A DNA stretch of 64,000 bases, taken from NCBI RefSeq assembly GCF_015709225.1, contig NZ_JADNRS010000049.1, positions 1-64,000 on the forward strand, in the 5' to 3' direction. Each line of letters opens with the position of its first letter. The first letter of the stretch is position 1. The translations under genes and the position numbers were made by a program. The notes under the pieces were generated by a model. It searched no databases. It was not told the origin of the DNA and saw nothing but the letters and a program-made list of their open reading frames with translations. This document shows, in pieces, positions 6,484-56,553 of this stretch. The stretch is from Acholeplasma laidlawii. GTDB lineage: Bacteria > Bacillota_I > Bacilli_A > Acholeplasmatales > Acholeplasmataceae.

Positions 6484-7787
6484 ATAGAGAAAAAGTCTTA
6501 GAAGTTAAAGGTCTAGAACAACACTTTAAAGTGGGTTCAGGACGTAATAAAATGGTCGTTAAGGCTGTTGACGGGATTAGTTTTGATATCTATAAAGGTG
6601 AAGTATTTGGTCTTGTAGGTGAATCAGGCTGTGGTAAAACTACGACTGGTCGTACAATCGTTAAATTATATGATGCTACGAATGGTGAAATCTTATTTAA
6701 AGGTCAACGTATTGGTGGTGGTGTAGGTACTTATGTTAAGCGCATTAAAGAAGCTAAAGCAGAAGCTAAGGCAGAAATCGATGCATTAAAGAGCGATACT
6801 ACTACGGATAATAAAGATAAAATAGCACAAATTAAAAAAGATTTAAGTTTATTAGTTAAAGCCCAAAAACAAGAAATTAAAAGAATGAAAAAGGACAATG
6901 CTTTCAAAGGTGAATTAATAAACACCATGAAGAAAGTACAAATGATTTTCCAAGATCCAATTTCATCCTTAAATCCACGTATGACAGTTAAAGAAATTAT
7001 CGCTGAGGGTTTACGTATTGGTGGTTTAAGGGATTCTAAAGTTATTGATGAAAAAGTATTTGAAATCTTAAAAGTTGTTGGTCTTGTTCCAGAACACGCA
7101 TTCCGTTATCCACATGAGTTCTCAGGTGGACAACGTCAACGTATTGGTATTGCCAGAGCGTTAATTGTTGAACCTGAATTATTAATTGCAGACGAACCTA
7201 TTAGTGCACTTGACGTATCTATTCAAGCTCAAGTCATTAACTTACTAAAAGATTTACAAAGTACTTTAAACTTAACTATTTTATTCATTGCTCACGACTT
7301 ATCAGTTGTTAAATACTTTAGTGATCGTATCGCGGTTATGCACTTTGGTAAAATTGTTGAATTAGCTTCATCAGAAGATTTATTCAATAATCCACTGCAT
7401 CCATATACTAAATCACTTTTATCAGCAATTCCATTCCCGAACCCAATTTATGAAAAGACACGTAAGAGATTCTCTTATGATGCATCAGTTCATAACTACA
7501 GTGAAACAAATCAACCATCGCTAGTCGATGTTGGTGGTAATCACTTTGTATACGGTTCACCAGATGAAATTGCAAACTATAAAAAAGAAGTTGTAGAAGC
7601 ATCTAAAGCTAAAACTAGCTCAACACCTGTTGATGTAGTAGCTAAAGCTGAAATTGAAGAAAAAGTAGTTGCTAAAAAAACAGCTACTAAGAAACCGACA
7701 GCAGCAAAAGCACCAGCTAAAAAAGCTGATGCAACAACAAAAAAGGCACCCGCTAAAAAGCCAGCTGCTAAAAAAGTAACTAAATAA
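6480..7787 (+). CDS. oppF: oligopeptide ABC transporter ATPase OppF with charged insert and Lys/Ala tail
   Basis: Second ATPase subunit. Walker A is GESGCGKT (residues 47-54), then Q-loop [13 protein letters not shown], signature FSGGQRQR, Walker [13 protein letters not shown] and switch His in IAHDLS. At 435 residues it is about 100 longer than classical OppF. Two additions explain this: a coiled-coil-like Lys/Glu/Ala insert at about residues 84-145 between Walker A and the Q-loop, and a C-terminal tail (about residues 385-435) of alternating Lys, Ala, Pro and Thr ([19 protein letters not shown]) that resembles histone-H1-like tails. The tail's function is unknown; binding to nucleic acid or anionic lipid is possible. 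It overlaps oppD by 4 bases and is followed by a terminator. Confidence 0.92.
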
Positions 7788-21577: not shown

Positions 21578-23869
21578 ATGAAGAAAGTAATATGGATATT
21601 TTTCGCAGTATTTTATTTGACTTCATGTTCGAATTTAGCACCTAAAGTCAGATTTGAGGTTGATGGGGGAATGCCAATTAATCCAATCTTGTTTGAAGAT
21701 GTTGATAAGTTACCTATACCTATAAAAGAGGGTTTCAGTTTTGATGGATGGTATCTAGACAGTGATTACCATGAAGAGTTGATCAATTCCACCCAAATAT
21801 CAAGAAATACCACACTCTATGCTAAGTGGGCAATAAATCAATACACTATTTCATTTGAAGTAAACGGTGGCACTGAATTAGAGAGTAATGTCTATGATTT
21901 TGAAGCTATAATTAATTTACCAATATTAGACAAAGAGGGTCATGTGTTTCAAGGTTGGTATTTAGATAGTAACTTTACAAATAGATTTGATTTAGTAAGG
22001 ATGCCTTCAAAAAACATAACTTTATTCGCAAAATGGTTGTTGGCAGAGTATGAACTTAATTTTTATCACGAAAATCAATTATTATCAAGCATTACATTAG
22101 CGTATAATCAAGAGATTACAAAAAACATGATACCGGCTATACCAATTATCGAAGGAAAATCATTTGATCGATGGACACTTGAAATACCAAATAGTATGCC
22201 AGCAAATGATGTCAACGTGTCAACTATGTACAAGATAACTGAACATTTGATTACATTTATAGATTATGATGGCACGATTTTATTAGAAGCAATTGTGAAG
22301 CATAACTCTGATGCACCTTTACCACCAACACCAAATAATCATGAAGGAAAATTATTTTTGGAATGGAAGGGACAGACTAAAAACATCACTAGTGATGGTA
22401 TTGTTGTAGCTGTTTATAATGATCTACTAACTGTATCCTTTGAAACAAATGGAGGATTTAATATTGAAGACGTTCAGATAGTGAAAGGTAGTTTGCTAAC
22501 AAATTTACCTATAGCTATAAAAGAGGGTTTCAGTTTTGATGGATGGTATATAGATTCAGATTTGGTAATCGTATTTAATGAGAAAGAGATTTTGACTGAA
22601 GATATTCACTTATACGCCAAATTTAAGCGTGATGAAATTACAGAAATTGTAATTATGCATGGTGCGCCATATGAGGTTGACCCATTCGATGCGGCTTACT
22701 CTGGTAGAGATCAACAAGAAAGACAAAATAAACAAAGAGAAGTTGAATCAAGACTAAATGTTAAAGTGGTTTATAAAGGATTCCCTGCAGCGGCAGCTTG
22801 GGGACCAGACCGTGTTAATGAGATTATTAAAGCGTCAGTAGCGGGAGCTCCATTAGCAGATATCTTATGGACAAATTCTGACTGGACTGCTCAATTAGCT
22901 AACGCAAATGCAATTGTTCCGGTTGACAAATATTTGTCATCAACCGGTACAAACATTACAACAGAGGCTAAACAACTAGGAACATTTAAGGGTCAATTCT
23001 ATGCATTCTCAGCAAACAAACCTACTGTGGATGTTGGTCTATACTTCAATATCGAATTAGTTAATGACTTAGGTATTGAAAATCCAGCTGTATTATACAA
23101 TAATGGTGAATGGACTTGGTCTAAATTTGAACAATGGGCAGATGCTGCTAAAGCTGCGCTTCCAAGTTTGGGTGATGACTATAAAGTTCTAGGTGGTGTA
23201 CGTGCTGTATATGCTGAAAATATGATTCCATTAAATGGTGGTTCATTAATAAACGTATTATCTGGACGTGTTGCATTCCATCAAGCACCAGCGTTAGAAA
23301 CATATAGTTTCTTACACGGTCTATATAATAAAGGGCTATTTGAAGGTTCAGGTACTTATGATTCTGGATCTCCATTATGGCATTCAGGTAAAGTTGTTAT
23401 ACATCCAGGTAGTTTCTGGTTCTTAAATGCAGCAAACAGATGGAATTACTTATCATTTGACTTAGGATTTGTTCCTTATCCATCAAGTGATACATACACT
23501 GGTGATTATGTTTCTCCAATTAGTGGATTGCAGGTTTATAACCTATCCGGTGGACTTAGTCCTGCTAAGGAAGCATTAGCATTCCAAGTATGGAATGAAC
23601 TTCAAATGTGGAAGACAGATACTGAACTATCAGATGAATTCTACGCAACATTGGTACAAAGATTCAATGATGAAGCTTCGATTAATGCTTACCTAAGCAT
23701 ATTTGATAAAACAAGATTAGATTTAACAGGTGCATTAGGTATCTCAAAATTCGCAGCAAATGGCTGGTACGGCGCAGCAAACCTTGCAATCGCTAATGGC
23801 GATGCTAGAGGTGAGATGGACAAGATCAGACCTGCTTACGAAGACGCACTTGCTACATATTTAAATTGA
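21578..23869 (+). CDS. lipoprotein fusing InlB/Flg_new-type repeats to a sugar-type solute-binding protein
   Basis: A 763-residue lipoprotein; lipobox YLTSC gives Cys17. Residues about 25-350 hold Listeria-Bacteroides (Flg_new/InlB B) repeats recognisable by GGxxI...GFSFDGWYLDS...LYAKW, three clear copies and one or two degenerate. Residues about 355-763 resemble a family 1 extracellular solute-binding protein (VESRLNVKVVYKGF, ADILWTNSDW, WTWSKFEQWADAAKA, GALGISKF). No permease or ATPase gene is adjacent, so it may be an adhesin or an orphan binding protein served by a remote transporter. The repeat part is more AT-rich than the binding domain, suggesting a domain fusion. Bases 21710-21759 and 22505-22554 are nearly identical. 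Confidence 0.8.
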   Translation: MKKVIWIFFAVFYLTSCSNLAPKVRFEVDGGMPINPILFEDVDKLPIPIKEGFSFDGWYLDSDYHEELINSTQISRNTTLYAKWAINQYTISFEVNGGTELESNVYDFEAIINLPILDKEGHVFQGWYLDSNFTNRFDLVRMPSKNITLFAKWLLAEYELNFYHENQLLSSITLAYNQEITKNMIPAIPIIEGKSFDRWTLEIPNSMPANDVNVSTMYKITEHLITFIDYDGTILLEAIVKHNSDAPLPPTPNNHEGKLFLEWKGQTKNITSDGIVVAVYNDLLTVSFETNGGFNIEDVQIVKGSLLTNLPIAIKEGFSFDGWYIDSDLVIVFNEKEILTEDIHLYAKFKRDEITEIVIMHGAPYEVDPFDAAYSGRDQQERQNKQREVESRLNVKVVYKGFPAAAAWGPDRVNEIIKASVAGAPLADILWTNSDWTAQLANANAIVPVDKYLSSTGTNITTEAKQLGTFKGQFYAFSANKPTVDVGLYFNIELVNDLGIENPAVLYNNGEWTWSKFEQWADAAKAALPSLGDDYKVLGGVRAVYAENMIPLNGGSLINVLSGRVAFHQAPALETYSFLHGLYNKGLFEGSGTYDSGSPLWHSGKVVIHPGSFWFLNAANRWNYLSFDLGFVPYPSSDTYTGDYVSPISGLQVYNLSGGLSPAKEALAFQVWNELQMWKTDTELSDEFYATLVQRFNDEASINAYLSIFDKTRLDLTGALGISKFAANGWYGAANLAIANGDARGEMDKIRPAYEDALATYLN
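21710..21759 (+). repeat. 50-bp near-exact direct repeat, copy 1
   Basis: Identical at 48 of 50 bases to 22505-22554; an uninterrupted 34-base identity runs 21721-21754. It encodes the KEGFSFDGWY core of two InlB-type repeats. Recombination between the copies would delete 795 bases (265 codons) in frame. Confidence 0.9.
22505..22554 (+). repeat. 50-bp near-exact direct repeat, copy 2
   Basis: Second copy; 34-base exact core at 22516-22549. The two copies lie 795 bases apart, a multiple of three. Confidence 0.9.
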
Positions 23870-39270: not shown

Positions 39271-40341
39271 ATGCTTTCGGATAATCATAAAAACATGGTT
39301 TATACTATCTATGCTAATGAAGTTGCAGCTATTATTCCGACCAGTGACTTTAATAAAGCATATGAAATTGGTTTAAACCTACTAAATAAGATGGCCGATT
39401 CTATCGCTATCGATAGATACCAAATTGGCATACTACTCAATGGGAGTATCGTCCAATATCCACTCCATATAAAAGATTCCAATGATGCTATAAAAAATTC
39501 AGCCATGATATTAGATCAAACGATAAATGACTTTGGTCTCCATGAATATAATGATGAAATGGAAAGAAAAAGTAGACTACAGGGTGAACTGGTTTCTGAG
39601 TTACTACATGCTATAAAAGAGAATGAATTTCACTTGGTCTATCAACCTAAAATTTCTTTAGATGGCAGCGAGCAATTAAGTGTTGAAGCGCTACTTAGAT
39701 GGCATCACCCGTATAAAGGTACGATTAGCCCTATGGTATTCATACCAGTTGCAGAAGAATCGGGTCTTATCAATGAAATAACTAAGACTGTGATTAGAAA
39801 CGTTATTGAGCAGACCTTATTATGGAAAGAAAAGGGTCTTGATGTTAAAACATCTATCAACATCTCTCATCGCGACTTTAATCATAAAGATTTTTTGACA
39901 TACATCCAAAAATCAATGGCTGAATGCCAAATAGATCCTTCGTTCATTGAGTTTGAGATTACTGAAAGAGGTGTACTTGAACGTAATGATAATATAATAA
40001 AATTATTTACTAATTTAAGAGATATGGGAATTAAAATATCAATTGATGACTTTGGCACAGGGTATAATTCACTTATCCACTTAGTACAAGTACCAATGGA
40101 TTATCTAAAAGTTGATAGATCCTTTATCATCAATATTACAAAACCTAAGTATCAAAAGAGGATTCAAAGATTAATTAGTTTAGCACACGATCTAGATATT
40201 AAAGTAATTGCTGAAGGTGTTGAAACCAAAGAACAACTCGATTTCCTTAAAGACATGAATTGTGATATTGTACAAGGTTATTACTTATCTAAACCGTTAG
40301 AAGCAGATGCTCTTGAGGCATTTTACAAAAATAGGGTATAA
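39271..40341 (+). pseudogene. 5'-truncated GGDEF-EAL protein with intact EAL domain
   Basis: The EAL domain (about residues 105-350) looks intact: EALLRWHHP, SINIS, FEITERG, DDFGTGYNSL, KVDRSFI, IAEGVE and QGYYLSKPL, so c-di-GMP phosphodiesterase activity is possible. The first ~100 residues are the C-terminal half of a degenerate GGDEF domain (TIYANEVAAIIP at the GGDEF position). Matching sequence continues upstream of the first ATG in the same frame (codons from 39211) into the preceding terminator, where a TGA at 39208 closes the frame. No ribosome-binding site precedes 39271 or the next ATG. I read it as a truncated remnant, possibly still translated. Confidence 0.6.
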
Positions 40342-48068: not shown

Positions 48069-48385
48069 ATGAAAACATTAATTCGTGAGGTTATTCAACT
48101 CGATCAACAAGCTAGATTAGAAATTGAAAAACTAAAAAAAGAAAAAGAAGAACTCTTCAATTCCTTTAAAGAAATGAAGGCGGATTTAAAAAATCAACAA
48201 CTACTTGAACTTGAAAAACAAACCAAGCAATTAGAGGTTGATGCCCAAATACTATTCGAACAACGTCTTGTTCAATACCAAAAAAAAATGCCATTAGGGA
48301 AGCAAACATCGTTAAGCAATATGAAGCGAATAAAGATGTTTGGCTTAAAGAACTAATGGATTTTATATTAGGTGAAGATAATTGA
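48069..48385 (+). CDS. ntpF: V/A-type ATPase peripheral stalk subunit (G/H, NtpF-like), -1 frame change at A9
   Basis: A coiled-coil stalk subunit expected to pair with subunit E. Frame 0 from 48069 reads a continuous Lys/Glu/Gln coiled coil to Lys73, then leaves it after nine A residues (48280-48288) and ends at 48356 with an unrelated basic tail. The -1 frame from 48287 continues sensibly (NAIREANIVKQYEANK, ending WLKELMDFILGEDN) to TGA at 48383-48385. That gives 105 residues, the usual size. The TGA overlaps the TTG start of ntpC by two bases, as coupled genes do. Either programmed/transcriptional slippage restores it, or the gene or read is broken. The start has only a weak ribosome-binding site. 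Confidence 0.75.
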
Positions 48386-49413
48386 TTGGCGCACATAATG
48401 CACTAATTACTAAGATTAAGACCATTCGTGCGAATGCCTTAAAATCTAGTGATTATGATGAACTACTTAAAAAAAGATCACTTTCTGATGTATCTTCATT
48501 CTTGAAGAAACATCCAGGATATCAAGATATTTTAAGTAAGGTTTCAGAAAATACAATTAATAGAAGTCGACTTGAAGGTCTCATTCGTCGTCAAAAATTT
48601 AATGATTTAATGCGTATCATTAAATTCTTAAAGATGAAAGATCAATCTTTTTATTTGCTTAGTCTTCTGCATCAAGAACATGAAGTACTATTATCTATGA
48701 TACGTAGTTTTATTTCTAGTGAAGTATATGATGTTGTTAAAGATTTACCGGTCTACTTTAACCAGTATTCCAAAATTGATTTTGAAGCAATCGCACTCAC
48801 TAAAAATTTAGCTGAATTTGTCGAGGCATTAAAAGGCACTAAATATCAAGAGATGTTAAAGAGTTTTAGAAATGTTAAAAATGAAGACATTAAGTATTAT
48901 GAATTTGAAGCTTTATTTGAAAATGATTATTACGATTATGCCTTTACTCACATTCAAAAACATTACAAAGGTAATCGTAAAAAAGAATTAGAAGATGTTT
49001 TCAAATCCAAAATTGAAATTGAAAACATCACTAAGATTTATCGTTTAAAGAAATATTATAAAGTCAATAATTTAGAGATTAAATCGACACTGATCCCAAC
49101 CAATAGAATTGGTGAAGAAAAGTTAGAACAAATCTTAAAAGTAGAAGATCCAAATCAAATATTAAATCGCATTATTGAAATGGGCGATAAAACATTTGTG
49201 GGTGAACAAGACCAAATATATCTAGAATATTTTACAGATCATATGCAATATAAGATTGCAAGTAAACTAATGTATTACGGTACACATCCATCTATGGTCT
49301 TCTTAGGTTATATGATTTTATCAGATTTAGAAGTAAGCAATTTAATTCACTTAATAGAAGGTATTAGATACAGTGTACCAGAGAGTGAAATCAGAACCAT
49401 GATGGTATTTTAG
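48382..49413 (+). CDS. ntpC: V/A-type ATPase subunit C
   Basis: Central-axis adaptor linking the D/F shaft to the membrane rotor, 343 residues, all-helical. The start IGAHNALITKIKTIRANALKS and the recurring YYEFEALFENDYYDYAF-type helices (cited for pattern) fit the AtpC/NtpC family. The start is TTG at 48382 and overlaps the stop of the frame-shifted upstream reading. Position second in a nine-gene cluster supports the call. Confidence 0.87.
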   Translation: MIGAHNALITKIKTIRANALKSSDYDELLKKRSLSDVSSFLKKHPGYQDILSKVSENTINRSRLEGLIRRQKFNDLMRIIKFLKMKDQSFYLLSLLHQEHEVLLSMIRSFISSEVYDVVKDLPVYFNQYSKIDFEAIALTKNLAEFVEALKGTKYQEMLKSFRNVKNEDIKYYEFEALFENDYYDYAFTHIQKHYKGNRKKELEDVFKSKIEIENITKIYRLKKYYKVNNLEIKSTLIPTNRIGEEKLEQILKVEDPNQILNRIIEMGDKTFVGEQDQIYLEYFTDHMQYKIASKLMYYGTHPSMVFLGYMILSDLEVSNLIHLIEGIRYSVPESEIRTMMVF

Positions 49414-49421
49414 AGGTCCTT

Positions 49422-51335
49422 ATGATAACAAAAATGAAATTAGTCAACTTAACAGCGGATAAGCGTATGGTCGATGAAGTCTTAAGAAGATTCATTGATT
49501 TTTCAGGGTTCCATCCAGTAGATAATCAAAAGATCTTAAGTACTGTGCATGGTTCAACTACTTTTGAGGGTACAAACCCTGCAACAGAGTTACTTGAACA
49601 AATCCATGAGATTGAAGAAGAACTTAACTTAACCTTACTTCCTGTTAAAACAAGAAAATTAAAAACAACTTTAGATGATATGCATCAATATATTTTAAAA
49701 TCTCACCAAGAATTTAAGACAGAATTTGATGATATTAAGGCATTAGAGCAAGAAAACTCTAATATATTGATTGCTTTAAAGCAATTAGAAAATTTAGCGG
49801 ATTTAGAATTATCATTTGATGATTTATTCTCTGCTAAGTTTGTTACTGTACGTATTGGTAAACTACCTTTTGATAGTATCGAACGTATTAGTTATTATAG
49901 TCATAAACCATTTATCTTTATTCCTTTTACTGAAGAAAAAGAAACAAAGGAATTATGGTGTCTATATTTAACTTCTAATGAATATAAACGTGAAATTGAT
50001 AACTTATTTACTTCCCTATACTTTGAGCGTGTTTACATTCCTGACTTTGTACATGGTACACCAGAAAATGCTCAAGAAGCATTAAGAGAAGTGATTAAGA
50101 AAAACGAACAAGAGATTAAAGAGTTTAGACAGATTTTAATTGATTTAGTACAAAAGTATCAAGAGCGCCTAGGTATTATTAAAGGTGAATTAGAGTTTAT
50201 TGATTTAATGTATAAATCAAGACGTCACGTTGTATTACTGGGTGACAGAATGTCGATTTCCGGGTTTGTTGAAGCAAATAAAGTAGCTCAGTTTGAAAAG
50301 TTATTTGATGGTTTAGCCAACTTAAGTGTCGATGCATCAGAAGCTCAAAGTGATAGACGTTTTACACCACCTACTAAACTTAAAAACAATTGGTTTAGTA
50401 AACCATTTGAAACTTATGTTGAAATGTATGGTATTCCAACCTATGGTAGTATTGATCCAACCAACTTAATGGCAATCACTTATACCTTATTATTTGGTAT
50501 GATGTTTGGTGATTTAGGTCAAGGCTTATTATTATCACTTATTGGGTTCTTATTAGGTAAGTTTAAAAATTGGAGTTTAGGTCCAATTATTGCTAGAATC
50601 GGCTTAAGTGGCGCATTCTTCGGACTTATTTATGGTGAATTTTTCGGTAACCAAGACTTCTTAATGCCACTTTATGATTGGCTAGGTATTGATTTCTTAC
50701 CTTTCCACGCGATGTCATCTAGTAATACGATGACACTTGTATTACTGAGTGTGAGCTTTGGTGCGATGTTATTATTAATGTCGATATTTGTAAGCACATT
50801 CTATAAGTTTAAACTTAAAGAATATGCAAAAGCAATCGCCTCCCCTAATGGTTTAGCTGGTCTTATATTTTATGGTTATATCTTAGTGGGTATCGCAGGT
50901 GGTATGTTGTTACAAATTCCTGGATTGTTCTCAATTATTCCAATCATATTATTCATTGGTATACCAGTTATACTGATGTTCTTACAAGAACCAATCGAAC
51001 GTAAATTCCATGGGGAAGCAATGTTTCCTGATGGTGTTGGTGGATTCTTAACAGAGGCAGTATTTGAAATGTTTGAAATTATATTAAGTTATGTAACAAA
51101 TACCTTATCATTCTTACGTGTTGCCGGATTCGTCTTAGTGCATGCTGGGTTAATGATGGTTGTTAATACTTTAGCAAATGATGGTACAAACCTTGTTGTC
51201 TTAGTATTAGGTAACTTATTTGTTATGGGTCTTGAAGGTTTACTAGTAAGTATTCAAGTATTAAGATTAGAGTTTTATGAAATGTTTTCACGTTACTATG
51301 ATGGTGACGGAATAGTGTTTAATCCAATATCTTAG
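49422..51335 (+). CDS. ntpI: V/A-type ATPase subunit I (a)
   Basis: Membrane stator subunit carrying the ion half-channels, 637 residues. The N-terminal soluble half (about residues 1-330) contains coiled-coil stretches, and the C-terminal half has seven to eight helices. The key arginine is in the FLRVAGFVLVHAGLMMV region (about residue 565). SIDPTNLMAITYTLLFGMMFGDLG is the conserved entry into the membrane domain (cited for PTNLMA and FGMMFGDLG). It is 8 bases after ntpC. Confidence 0.93.
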   Translation: MITKMKLVNLTADKRMVDEVLRRFIDFSGFHPVDNQKILSTVHGSTTFEGTNPATELLEQIHEIEEELNLTLLPVKTRKLKTTLDDMHQYILKSHQEFKTEFDDIKALEQENSNILIALKQLENLADLELSFDDLFSAKFVTVRIGKLPFDSIERISYYSHKPFIFIPFTEEKETKELWCLYLTSNEYKREIDNLFTSLYFERVYIPDFVHGTPENAQEALREVIKKNEQEIKEFRQILIDLVQKYQERLGIIKGELEFIDLMYKSRRHVVLLGDRMSISGFVEANKVAQFEKLFDGLANLSVDASEAQSDRRFTPPTKLKNNWFSKPFETYVEMYGIPTYGSIDPTNLMAITYTLLFGMMFGDLGQGLLLSLIGFLLGKFKNWSLGPIIARIGLSGAFFGLIYGEFFGNQDFLMPLYDWLGIDFLPFHAMSSSNTMTLVLLSVSFGAMLLLMSIFVSTFYKFKLKEYAKAIASPNGLAGLIFYGYILVGIAGGMLLQIPGLFSIIPIILFIGIPVILMFLQEPIERKFHGEAMFPDGVGGFLTEAVFEMFEIILSYVTNTLSFLRVAGFVLVHAGLMMVVNTLANDGTNLVVLVLGNLFVMGLEGLLVSIQVLRLEFYEMFSRYYDGDGIVFNPIS

Positions 51336-51347
51336 GAGGAAAGAATT

Positions 51348-51800
51348 ATGGAATGGATTTTATTAAGTATCATCGTGTTAGGGGTAATCTTTATCGCATT
51401 ACCTTTAGTTAAAGTTTTTAAGGGTTCAGTATCTGCTTTATCAGCTAAAAAAAGAATTATGTTACACATTGGTTTATTTGCAACATTCTTCTTTACAGTA
51501 GCAATCATTGCACCTTTTGCATTTGCAGCTGAGTTTGCAACTCCAGGTGTAGCTGAATCAGGATTTTTCTATCAAGCAGCAGCATTTGGTTATTTAGGTG
51601 CAGCAATCTCAACTGGTGCATCAGCACTTGGTGCGGGTATTGCGGTTGCAGCTGCAGCGCCAGCAGCGATTGGTGCTATTTCTGAAAATCCAAAAAACTT
51701 AGGTAAATCATTAATCTTCGTTGCTTTAGGCGAAGGGGTTGCGATTTACGGTATGTTAATTTCTATCTTGATTTTAAATACGATTCCAGCAATCGCTTAA
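51348..51800 (+). CDS. ntpK: V/A-type ATPase subunit K (rotor ring c)
   Basis: Proteolipid of the rotor ring, 150 residues. The conserved hairpin is in the C-terminal two helices: FGYLGAAISTGASALGAGIA and then SLIFVALGEGVAIYGMLIS with ion-binding Glu129. Two further hydrophobic segments (about residues 3-20 and 38-62) precede it but lack a second Glu, so one ion site per protomer. The Gln/Thr pattern of sodium-binding E. hirae NtpK is not evident, which favours protons; this is weak inference. AGGAGG precedes the ATG. Confidence 0.93.
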   Translation: MEWILLSIIVLGVIFIALPLVKVFKGSVSALSAKKRIMLHIGLFATFFFTVAIIAPFAFAAEFATPGVAESGFFYQAAAFGYLGAAISTGASALGAGIAVAAAAPAAIGAISENPKNLGKSLIFVALGEGVAIYGMLISILILNTIPAIA

Positions 51801-51816
51801 TTAAAGGGAAATTATC

Positions 51817-52131
51817 ATGAGGTTTTATCTTTTAAGTGACAACGTAGACACATTAGTCGGGTTAAGATTAGTAGGCATCGAAGGTGAAGTCATCCATGAG
51901 AAAACACACCTTGTTGAGACATTAAAAACAATCACGCAAGATGAATCGATTGCGATTGTTTTACTCACTACCAAGGTCGTTTTACTGGCACCTGAATTAA
52001 TATCCGAATTAAAACTTAGAAATCAAAACCCATTATTTATAGAAATACCAGACAGACACGGAAAATCAAATATGGGTGAGAGTGTCGATGATTATGTATC
52101 TAAAGCAATCGGTGTAAAACTAACAAAGTAG
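51817..52131 (+). CDS. ntpG: V/A-type ATPase subunit F (NtpG)
   Basis: Small central-stalk subunit, 104 residues, with a Rossmann-like alternating pattern: FYLLSDNVDTLVGLRLVGIEG at the start (cited for its L-x-D-x-x-T-x-x-G-x-R-x-x-G pattern), then ESIAIVLLTTKV and NPLFIEIPDRHGK. It lies between subunits K and E, 16 bases after ntpK. Together with subunit D it forms the rotating shaft. Confidence 0.9.
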   Translation: MRFYLLSDNVDTLVGLRLVGIEGEVIHEKTHLVETLKTITQDESIAIVLLTTKVVLLAPELISELKLRNQNPLFIEIPDRHGKSNMGESVDDYVSKAIGVKLTK

Positions 52132-52138
52132 GTGTATC

Positions 52139-52708
52139 ATGAAATTTAACAATAACGAAGAATTAAGTAAATATTTCAAAACAGCCATTGAAAAGGAATC
52201 TAGTCTTGAAATTGAAACTTTAAGAACTGAAATTGAAGGTATGAAGTCAGAAGCACGCCAAAAATTCAAAAAAGAACTTGAAGAAGAAAAGTTAGATATC
52301 TTATCAAGTCGTGCTAGAGATATTTACAAGCAATACCAAGAAGAACTATCAGTTAAGCAACGTACGCTTGATCTTTTAGTTATGGAAAAAAGAATGCATT
52401 TGATTGATGAATTATTTGATACGCTTGAAGAAAAAATAAAAGAATTTAGAAAAACACCAGAAAGCGTTAAGTGGTTTAAGAAAAAACTAACCAAGTATGA
52501 TCTTAAATCTTTTGATACGATAGAGTTAAACCCATTAGATAAAGATATTGCACCTAGCCACTTGAAGGTGAAGTTAAATCCTAATATACGTGCAGGCTTT
52601 ATTCTTTATAATGAAAATTTAAACCGCTTAGTTGTTGAAACAATTTCTTCAAATTTAGAAGAAGCACGTAAATACTTCTATGAAAATGCGAAATGGTTTA
52701 GTGAGTAG
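52139..52708 (+). CDS. ntpE: V/A-type ATPase subunit E
   Basis: Peripheral stalk subunit, 189 residues. A long charged coiled coil (about residues 10-105) precedes a C-terminal globular domain (NIRAGFILYNENLNRLVVET, about residues 148-167; the G-F-I pattern is typical). It pairs with the G/H subunit encoded at the head of the operon, so a defect there would unbalance the stalk. The stop is immediately followed by the ntpA ATG. Confidence 0.9.
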   Translation: MKFNNNEELSKYFKTAIEKESSLEIETLRTEIEGMKSEARQKFKKELEEEKLDILSSRARDIYKQYQEELSVKQRTLDLLVMEKRMHLIDELFDTLEEKIKEFRKTPESVKWFKKKLTKYDLKSFDTIELNPLDKDIAPSHLKVKLNPNIRAGFILYNENLNRLVVETISSNLEEARKYFYENAKWFSE

Positions 52709-54460
52709 ATGTTTATGAAAAATACAATTAGAGTAATTAACGGACCGGTTGTTAAACTTGGTTCTACAGATGAATTTAAAATGTTAGAAATGGTCTATGT
52801 TGGACCAAAAAGATTAATTGGAGAAGTAATTTCCATTTCTGATACTGAAACAGTTATCCAAGTTTATGAAACCACACAAGGTTTAAAAGTTGGGGACTTA
52901 GTTTACCCTACAGGTGAACTTGTTTCAGTGATGCTTGGTCCTGGTTTAATGGGTAATATTTTTGATGGGGTTTTAAGACCACTTCAAAAAATAAAAGACT
53001 CTGACGGTCCATTTATTAAAGCTGGTTCTAATATTCCAAGTTTGGATTTTGAACAAACATTTGATGTTGAGGTTAAAGTTCAAGAAGGTAATTATTTAGG
53101 TTGCGGTATGGTATATGCAGTGATTAAAGAAACCAGTGCGATTGAACATCGTTTAATGGTTCCACCACATATAGAAGGTATTGCTAAATCAGTGAAACCT
53201 TCTGGAAGTTATCAAGTTAAAGATACTGTCTTAGTGTTAGAAACTAAAGATGGTGATGTGGAATTAAAATTATACCAAACATGGCCAATTAAAAAAGCAA
53301 GACCTGTTACAGAAAGACTTGAATTATCTACACCACTGATTACTGGTCAACGTGTAATTGACACACTATTTCCAATTGCAAAAGGTGGTACAGCAGCAAT
53401 TCCTGGTGGATTTGGTACAGGTAAGACCATGTTACAACATCAACTCGCTAAATGGTCTGATGCAGATATAATCGTCTATGTTGGTTGTGGGGAACGTGGT
53501 AATGAAATGACACAAGTCTTGGAAGAATTTACTAAGTTAGTAGACCCAAGAACCAATCAAACTTTAATGGATAGAACTATTTTAATTGCAAACACATCCA
53601 ATATGCCAGTAGCAGCAAGAGAAGCGAGTATTTATACAGGGCTTACTGTTGCTGAATACTACCGTGATATGGGGTATCATGTTGCGATTATGGCAGACTC
53701 TACATCACGTTGGGCAGAAGCACTTCGTGAAATTTCAGCAAGACTTGAAGAAATTCCTGCTGAAGAAGGTTATCCATCTTATTTACCAAGCCGTATCTCT
53801 AAATTCTACGAACGTGCTGGTATGATGATTAATCAAAATAGATCAACTGGATCAGTTTCAATTATTGGTGCAGTTTCTCCTCAAGGGGCAGACTTTAGTG
53901 AACCAGTCACTCAAAATACAAAGCGTTTTGTTAGAGCATTTTGGGCACTTGATAAATCACTAGCGCATCAAAGACACTTTGCAGCGATTAACTGGAATTT
54001 GAGTTACTCAGAATATATTTATGATTTATCAAGTTGGTATGACAATACACTGGACCCTAAATTCTTAAAATATAGAAGTAGAATTTTAAGTATACTTGCT
54101 GAAGAATATAAATTAAATGAAATCGCAAGTTTAATGGGTAGTGACGTTTTACCAGATAACCAAAAACTTACGATTGAAATTGGACGCGTTATCCGTACTG
54201 GATTTCTCCAACAAAATGCATTCAATGCAGTGGATACATTCGTACCACTACATAAACAATTAAACATGATTGAAACCATTTTATACCTATATGATAGTTC
54301 ATTAAGATTCATTGAAAAAGGTAAAGCTTTAACACTTATCTTAAAATCAGGTATATTTGATCAGATCATTCAAATGAAATATGAAATTGGAAATGAACCA
54401 ACTGACGAATTTGACAAATTAAAACACCTAATTGATCAAACAATTGATTCAATTTTCTAA
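52709..54460 (+). CDS. ntpA: V/A-type ATPase catalytic subunit A
   Basis: Nucleotide-hydrolysing subunit, 583 residues. The P-loop is PGGFGTGKT (residues 232-240), in place of the more common GAFGCGKT or [25 protein letters not shown] follows (catalytic Glu), then [16 protein letters not shown] and [14 protein letters not shown]. The start has no gap to ntpE, and a second ATG two codons on is possible. With B it forms the A3B3 head. Whether the enzyme makes or consumes ATP cannot be told. Confidence 0.96.
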
Positions 54461-54477
54461 AGAGAGGATAATTAAAT

Positions 54478-55914
54478 ATGAGTTTAGAATATGTAGGTCT
54501 AAAAGCGATTAAGGGTCCAATTATCTTTTTAGAAGGATCAAAAGATATTGGTTATGAAGAAGTCGTTGAAATCCGTATTGGTAACAATGAAGTACGTCAT
54601 GGACGTGTCATTGAAATATCTGGTGACATCGTAGCGGTTGAAGTATTTGAAGGTACTGACGGTATGATGTTAAAAGATGTATATACTAAATTTTTAGGTC
54701 ATCCACTAAGAATGGGATTATCTAAAGAAGTGTTGGGACGCACATTTAACGGTGCAGGTTTACCAATTGATGGGTTAGGACCAATCTTTTCCAATATAAG
54801 TATGGATGTCAATGGTGAATCCATGAATCCAGTATCTAGAAGATATCCTAAAAACTTTATTGAAACAGGTATTTCATCTATTGATACATTAGCTACTTTA
54901 ATTAGAGGTCAAAAACTTCCAATTTTTTCAGCAACAGGTTTAACACATAATGAGCTTGCTGTAGAAATTGTTAAACATGCTAAAATAGCTGAAAAAGAAC
55001 ATGACAAGTTCTGTATCGTATTCGCTGCTATGGGTGTTAAACACGACGTAGCACAATACTTTAAATCACAATTTGAACAAGCACACGTTATGGATAGAGT
55101 TGCTATGTTTTTAAACACAGCATCTGAACCAATTGTTGAACGTATTTTAGCACCACGTGCGGCACTAACAACTGCAGAATATTTAGCATTCCATGAAGAC
55201 TACCATGTATTAGTTATTATGACTGATATGACAAGCTACTGTGAAGCCCTAAGAGAGTTTTCATCTTCTAAAGGTGAAATTCCTGGACGTAAAGGATATC
55301 CTGGATATATGTATTCAGATCTTTCATCCCTATATGAACGTGCTGGTATGATTGAAGGTAAATCTGGTTCAGTGACTCAAATTCCAATATTAACGATGCC
55401 TAATAATGACATTACACATCCAATTCCTGACTTAACTGGTTATATTACAGAAGGTCAAATCGTATTAGATGGACAATTAAAACAAAGAGGCATTTTCCCG
55501 CCTATTAGTGTACTACCATCACTTTCACGTTTAATGAAAGATGGTATTGGTGCAGATTATACGAGAAAAGACCATGCAATTGTAGCAGACCAATTACTAG
55601 CTGCTTATGCAAAATATAATGAAGTTACAGCACTTAGCCAAGTCATTGGTGAAGATGAACTAAGTACAAGTGACCAACACTTTATGATGTTTGGTAAATT
55701 ATTTGAAACCCACTTTATTAATCAAGGTGAAGAATCTAGACGTTTAGGTGATTCATTAGATTTAGGATGGGATTTATTAAGTCTATTACCAGAAGATCAA
55801 TTAAACCGACTAAGTAGAGACCAAATTAGTCAATATATTAACAAAGAAAAAGCATATGCAAGATTTGAATTAAATGATAATGATACAATTGAGCGCATGC
55901 TTGGAAAGAACTAA
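54478..55914 (+). CDS. ntpB: V/A-type ATPase regulatory subunit B
   Basis: Non-catalytic partner of A, 478 residues, with a degenerate P-loop as expected (LPIFSATGLTHNELAVEI). Other segments: FAAMGVKHDVAQYFKSQFE, MTDMTSYCEALREFSSSKGEIPGRKGYPGYMYSDL (cited for TDMTSYCEALRE and GRKGYPGYMYSDL), and PDLTGYITEGQI. AGAGAGG precedes the ATG by 9 bases. Confidence 0.96.
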   Translation: MSLEYVGLKAIKGPIIFLEGSKDIGYEEVVEIRIGNNEVRHGRVIEISGDIVAVEVFEGTDGMMLKDVYTKFLGHPLRMGLSKEVLGRTFNGAGLPIDGLGPIFSNISMDVNGESMNPVSRRYPKNFIETGISSIDTLATLIRGQKLPIFSATGLTHNELAVEIVKHAKIAEKEHDKFCIVFAAMGVKHDVAQYFKSQFEQAHVMDRVAMFLNTASEPIVERILAPRAALTTAEYLAFHEDYHVLVIMTDMTSYCEALREFSSSKGEIPGRKGYPGYMYSDLSSLYERAGMIEGKSGSVTQIPILTMPNNDITHPIPDLTGYITEGQIVLDGQLKQRGIFPPISVLPSLSRLMKDGIGADYTRKDHAIVADQLLAAYAKYNEVTALSQVIGEDELSTSDQHFMMFGKLFETHFINQGEESRRLGDSLDLGWDLLSLLPEDQLNRLSRDQISQYINKEKAYARFELNDNDTIERMLGKN

Positions 55915-55920
55915 TAATTT

Positions 55921-56553
55921 ATGAGCCAAGTAATTCCAACTAAAGGCAACTTAATACATCTTAAAGCTAAAGAAGCCCTCGCTAAAAATGGAGAGGTTTT
56001 ATTAGATAGAAAGAAAAATATTTTAATACAAGAAGTATTAACTTTAGTTACGGATATTACAGAGGTACGTACCAAACTACAAGAAACTTATAAGAAGGCA
56101 TATCAAGCATTACAAGATGCAAATATCACACTAGGTATTGTTAGTGAGATTGCTAAAGCAATTCCAATTGACCAAAACCTACAAGTCACTTACCGTTCTT
56201 TAATGGGTGTGGACTTACCAGTGATATTATATGAAAAACCTAATATACGTTTAAGTTATGGATTACGTGCTACAAACTCTAAATTTGACTATGCATACAA
56301 AACGTTTCAAGATGCTAGAGATTTAACCGTAGAACTTGCAAAATTAGAATCTACATTATATAGATTAGCCAATGCAATCCGTCAAACTAAAAAAAGACAT
56401 AATGCATTAAAAAATGTTATTCTACCAAACCTGGATACAGATATCCACTGGATTAAAGAAAGACTAGAAGCTGAAGACCAAGAAGAGTTCATTCGTTTAA
56501 AAACCATCAAAAATAAACAAGAAAAGGCTAAAGTGAATGGAAAGCAAATCTAA
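55921..56553 (+). CDS. ntpD: V/A-type ATPase subunit D
   Basis: Central shaft subunit, 210 residues, predicted as a long antiparallel coiled coil. The N-terminal PTKGNLIHLKAKEALAKNG and the C-terminal RLANAIRQTKKRHNALKNVI are family hallmarks. It is last of the ATPase genes and overlaps the signal peptidase gene by 17 bases. Confidence 0.94.
   Translation: MSQVIPTKGNLIHLKAKEALAKNGEVLLDRKKNILIQEVLTLVTDITEVRTKLQETYKKAYQALQDANITLGIVSEIAKAIPIDQNLQVTYRSLMGVDLPVILYEKPNIRLSYGLRATNSKFDYAYKTFQDARDLTVELAKLESTLYRLANAIRQTKKRHNALKNVILPNLDTDIHWIKERLEAEDQEEFIRLKTIKNKQEKAKVNGKQI

Follow-up and report, generated by a model that had tools for sequence, protein, structure and literature searches.

A probable one-base loss created a nine-A run and divided a V-type ATPase stalk gene between two frames in Acholeplasma laidlawii

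Buchnera and Blochmannia carry genes that are frameshifted at poly-A runs and for which a rescue through slippage of the polymerase has been proposed. In many bacterial genomes slippage becomes apparent once a run reaches nine adenines, and a run of this length (A9) is present in Thermus dnaX (PMC1088944). In E. coli and Buchnera insertion rates climb exponentially with run length, in a study where no restoration of a reading frame was observed (PMC5574713), and the A9 of IS1447, an IS3-family element of Clostridium thermocellum, slips at a rate of about 16% each way (PMC6211511). Here we describe an A9 within the first gene of a V-type ATPase operon of Acholeplasma laidlawii, which lies in the 64,000-nucleotide stretch of contig NZ_JADNRS010000049.1 that we analysed (the window). 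The comparisons shown here suggest that this stalk gene has lost a single base, that the loss is probably real and probably leaky, and that the site is probably not an evolved dosage device.

Read from the ATG at 48069, frame 0 of the stalk gene stops at a TAA (48354-48356), and the final 22 residues of its product lie outside the ancestral frame. Past the A9 the -1 frame encodes NAIREANIVKQYEANKDVWLKELMDFILGEDN, and the joined product is a coiled coil of 105 residues whose TGA (48383-48385) overlaps the TTG start of ntpC at 48382. An earlier note on this DNA had described the A9, the frame-0 stop at 48356, the -1 continuation to 105 residues and the overlap with ntpC, and all of these were borne out by the sequence, the last at 48382-48385. 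When products were computed for different run lengths in the mRNA, A10 gave 105 residues, A7 gave 104 and A9 gave 95, with A8 and A11 giving 75-76. The A9, with its A-AAA-AAA, had also been named as a slip site, and the frame relation is indeed the correct one, since it is the -1 frame that encodes the full-length product. The same A9 is found in contig G000:C43 of the assembly, which is the same data as the window and not a set of independent reads.

Table 1. Coordinates of the stalk gene, its nine-A run and the operon that follows
Feature	Position	Strand	Remarks
Frame-0 ORF, putative V-type ATPase peripheral-stalk subunit G-like protein	48069..48356	+	95 aa
Nine-A run (A9)	48280..48288	+	One nucleotide fewer than the 10-nt AAGAAAAAAA of the nearest relative, G005
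Ancestral C-terminal part, -1 frame	48287..48385	+	32 codons and TGA; conserved NKDVW motif
ntpC, V-type ATPase subunit C (AC39/d)	48382..49413	+	PF01992, E=1.5e-53; start overlaps the stalk gene's ancestral stop
Remaining V-ATPase operon: I, K, F, E, A, B, D	49422..56553	+	All intact

Seven genomes of the same genus were compared with the window genome (G000), five of which have the stalk gene, and together with 22 proteins from elsewhere in the family these gave a set of 27 extracted homologues. The nearest relative, G005 (one contig of 1,496,992 bases), matches the window DNA at about 93.5% across 61 kb, and its stalk protein, with 105 residues in one open frame, is 97% identical to the joined reading. 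The other four same-genus homologues are likewise uninterrupted (66%, 61%, 60% and 48% identity to the joined reading), as are the weaker ones elsewhere in the family. In fact all 27 read through one frame and end in a similar tail, and a C-terminus of the frame-0 type had no counterpart among them when they were aligned. Moreover, of the near-invariant positions in this alignment (L11, D12, A15, L22, K26, K89 and W92), K89 and W92, which belong to an NKDxW motif, sit solely in the -1 tail and are absent from the frame-0 product, and the stalk TGA, which in the window overlaps the ntpC start, is found at the same position in the genus relatives. Since the homologues share this tail, the two conserved residues lie within it and the position of the TGA is kept in the genus, the alignments indicate that the -1 tail is no chance reading but the ancestral, evolved end of the stalk protein, in agreement with what the note had proposed. 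One apparent hidden frameshift, in homologue L030 with four internal stops, was rejected as a spurious match inside an unrelated 644-codon open frame. Elsewhere in the window, a 763-aa lipoprotein-like ORF (21578-23869), which reads as InlB-like repeats followed by a putative sugar-binding-protein domain, sits in a 2.6-kb stretch missing from G005 at that place, and a gene for an EAL-domain (cyclic-di-GMP phosphodiesterase-like) protein at 39271-40341 is strongly diverged from G005 at its locus.

At the site of the run G005 has CAAGAAAAAAATGCC and the window has CAAAAAAAAATGCC, and deletion of one G from the former reproduces the window's A9 exactly, so that the loss of one G would explain the run and the frame shift together. 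We therefore envisage that one nucleotide, most simply the G, was recently lost within an ancestral CAA GAA AAA AAT, which would have joined AA to AAAAAAA to make the A9 and thereby shifted the frame; another route would be a G-to-A substitution, giving an A10, followed by the loss or miscounting of one A. Neither the frameshift nor the A9 was found in any of the 27 homologues, and no run above A7 occurs within the stalk gene of the five same-genus relatives. Because the A-runs of the genus members other than G005 are short and interrupted here, the two-frame arrangement is, on this comparison, private to the window genome. What we observe is thus a single private indel in a gene that is intact in every close relative having it, which points to a recent and lineage-private change and not to conserved programmed frameshifting. 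On the 3' side of the run the window and G005 differ at three positions, none of which alters the -1-frame protein; these silent differences fit either a very recent shift or continued use of the tail and do not separate the two.

The note had offered a recent mutation or an assembly error as the simple alternative to slippage, and the comparison with intact relatives backs this pair of explanations. We infer that the deletion is present in the DNA and did not arise in assembly, and we hold a real mutation to be about twice as probable as an error. The window genome is a 1.33-Mb draft in 55 contigs (99.67% complete), and its consensus might have lost one base at or beside a homopolymer while the true frame is intact. 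Such an error would suit the position of the indel, which falls in a kind of run (nine or more A/T) that is scarce in the draft (about 13), the intact stalk gene of every relative and an operon that is otherwise intact and conserved. However, in an orthologue comparison of G005 with G000 over about 264 kb (the window plus 200 kb of contig C21, C21:1-200000), about 230 G005 genes were intact in G000 with no other mid-gene frame break, the stalk gene alone being divided between frames; a further G000 gene has an internal stop, and the other flagged genes were partial or divergent matches. The method does detect frame splits, since several G005 genes appear shifted in the reverse comparison. The G005 counterparts of the G000:C21 genes at 7037, 21951, 105140 and 148355 appear to be frame-split, either as pseudogenes or through errors in that genome. 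Three other mid-gene A9/T9 runs of G000 (L039, L044 and L045) also stay in frame, and these and the orthologue comparison rule out a general homopolymer error in the assembly. A direct error, moreover, must drop a G, and an undercounted run requires a true A10 reached through a separate E-to-K substitution. In 225 sampled G000 genes (from the window and C21:1-200000), compared with shuffles of synonymous codons, A-runs of eight numbered 9 against 36.8 expected, those of nine 2 against 14.3 and those of ten or more 0 against 8.3; a true A10 misassembled as A9 is not an obvious guess, because long A-runs are depleted in genes. T-runs of six or more are depleted in a similar way, and the shortage of long A/T runs suggests selection against slippage or indels. 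An isolated assembly error is thus possible, if less economical than a real mutation, and we consider it the lesser of the two accounts and on balance unlikely.

Assuming that the deletion is real, its consequence depends on what the gene encodes. The stalk gene stands first in the operon, in which Pfam identifies the C, I and F subunits (ntpI as PF01496, the F subunit as PF01990) and in which A and B were recognised as subunits of a rotary ATPase. In a PDB profile search the top three matches were V-ATPase subunit G (positions 6-101 of 103), with weak E values of 0.012-0.035, and among 22 homologues there was one Pfam match to PF16999 (E=0.002) and one to PF03179 (E=0.0036). The coiled coil, the profile search and the gene order thus support, with weak scores, a subunit G-like half of an EG peripheral stalk. 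Of the two subunits of an EG stalk, E makes contact with the catalytic head while the stability of the stalk comes from G (PMC6131620). With its conserved end missing, the frame-0 product would probably build a poor stalk. Faithful expression would yield this 95-residue product, which lacks the conserved C-terminus, and the V-ATPase would be impaired by this loss of function. The rest of the operon has pN/pS values of 0.00-0.14 against G005 and no decay, which indicates that it is under strong purifying selection; this counts against loss, although a recent loss would not yet show decay. An F-type atpD is also present in the window genome, as is a further A/B pair of V-type, in agreement with the published ATPase inventory of A. 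laidlawii (PMC4221730), and because of this F-type and second V-type ATPase an impairment may be tolerable. The second V-type ATPase and the F-type ATPase lie close together at G000:C48:39024-51151, and the genome has three rotary ATPases.

The impairment may also be incomplete. Some full-length protein would probably still come from a minority of transcripts that have gained one A, or from ribosomes shifting to -1 on A-AAA-AAA. Leaky rescue through RNA-polymerase slippage is plausible, since A9 slips in several bacteria and an IS3-family A9 in this genus needs the same shift. In that element (L043 401-1366, G000:C33) an A9 at 456-464 lies where orfA, with HTH domains, and orfB, with an rve integrase core, overlap in a -1 relation, and the exact A9 at this junction is kept in G000, in G001 and in copies from G004 at about 84% DNA identity, which suggests programmed slippage in the genus. 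Taken together, a recent one-base loss, an impaired but tolerable V-ATPase and leaky rescue by slippage make up what we regard as the best explanation overall and one that is rather probable. A bolder version, in which the A9 is real and fixed and RNA-polymerase slippage yields sufficient full-length subunit G for the V-ATPase to go on working, we hold to be doubtful; if true, an essential-looking component of the stalk would come solely from slipped transcripts, in a genus with A9-dependent IS elements.

The A-run could also be a contingency locus, varying in length by DNA replication slippage and so toggling the ATPase within the population. Ion-pump subunits are unusual as contingency genes, the relatives have no long run at the site, and long A-runs are avoided in the genes of the window genome. 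Although homopolymer phase variation occurs in bacteria (PMC2831843), and a change between A9 and A10 would by our computation switch the frame, we regard such a locus as improbable.

As for a -1 frameshift being an evolved requirement of the gene and slippage setting the dose of the stalk subunit, neither claim is supported by the comparison: the five same-genus relatives are intact with no shift and runs of at most A7, so the run is private. Programmed recoding, in which slippage at the A9 by polymerase or ribosome would be selected to set the amount of full-length subunit, has in its favour that A9 and A-AAA-AAA are proper slip sites, that the folding prediction places a stem 3 nt downstream (z -2.56) and that a genus IS3-family element has its conserved A9 at a -1 junction. 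However, frameshift and run are absent from every relative compared, no homologue (n=27) combines a slip site with conservation of both frames, and the frame-0 end is without counterpart. The stem was rejected as a frameshift stimulator, being equally stable in the unshifted G005 and ordinary for the operon, where 78 of 417 windows fold as well or better. Nor does the IS3-family A9 make the stalk site programmed, because the stalk site is unconserved and its stem is shared with G005. Programmed recoding is thus the least credible of the explanations weighed here, and we give it very little weight.

If the A9 is real, the recent loss that we favour would offer a clean natural test of how far slippage buffers an accidental poly-A frameshift in a mollicute; the intact sister gene would allow a comparison, and the conserved A9 of the IS element would provide an internal yardstick within the same cells. 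If it is not, the locus would be a caution that a single indel in a draft genome can mimic recoding.

Set beside the known systems, the stalk gene most resembles the frameshifted genes of Buchnera and Blochmannia, with a one-nucleotide indel, an A-run, a conserved gene, an AT-rich genome and a possible rescue by slippage; however, it stands alone in a genome where long A-runs are avoided, and its rescue is a prediction. It is similar to tssM of Citrobacter rodentium in having a premature interruption whose frame could be restored by transcriptional frameshifting, which was there established by experiment and is here our reading of the DNA (PMC4256274). With IS1447 and other IS3-family elements it shares an A9 and a change of frame required to read on, but theirs is conserved and programmed whereas that of the stalk gene is private to one genome (PMC6211511). 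Lastly, like dnaX of Thermus thermophilus it is a cellular gene with nine A, which in dnaX undergo transcriptional slippage; there the full-length product comes from the frame written in the DNA and the short one from slippage, and in the stalk gene these roles would be reversed (PMC1088944).
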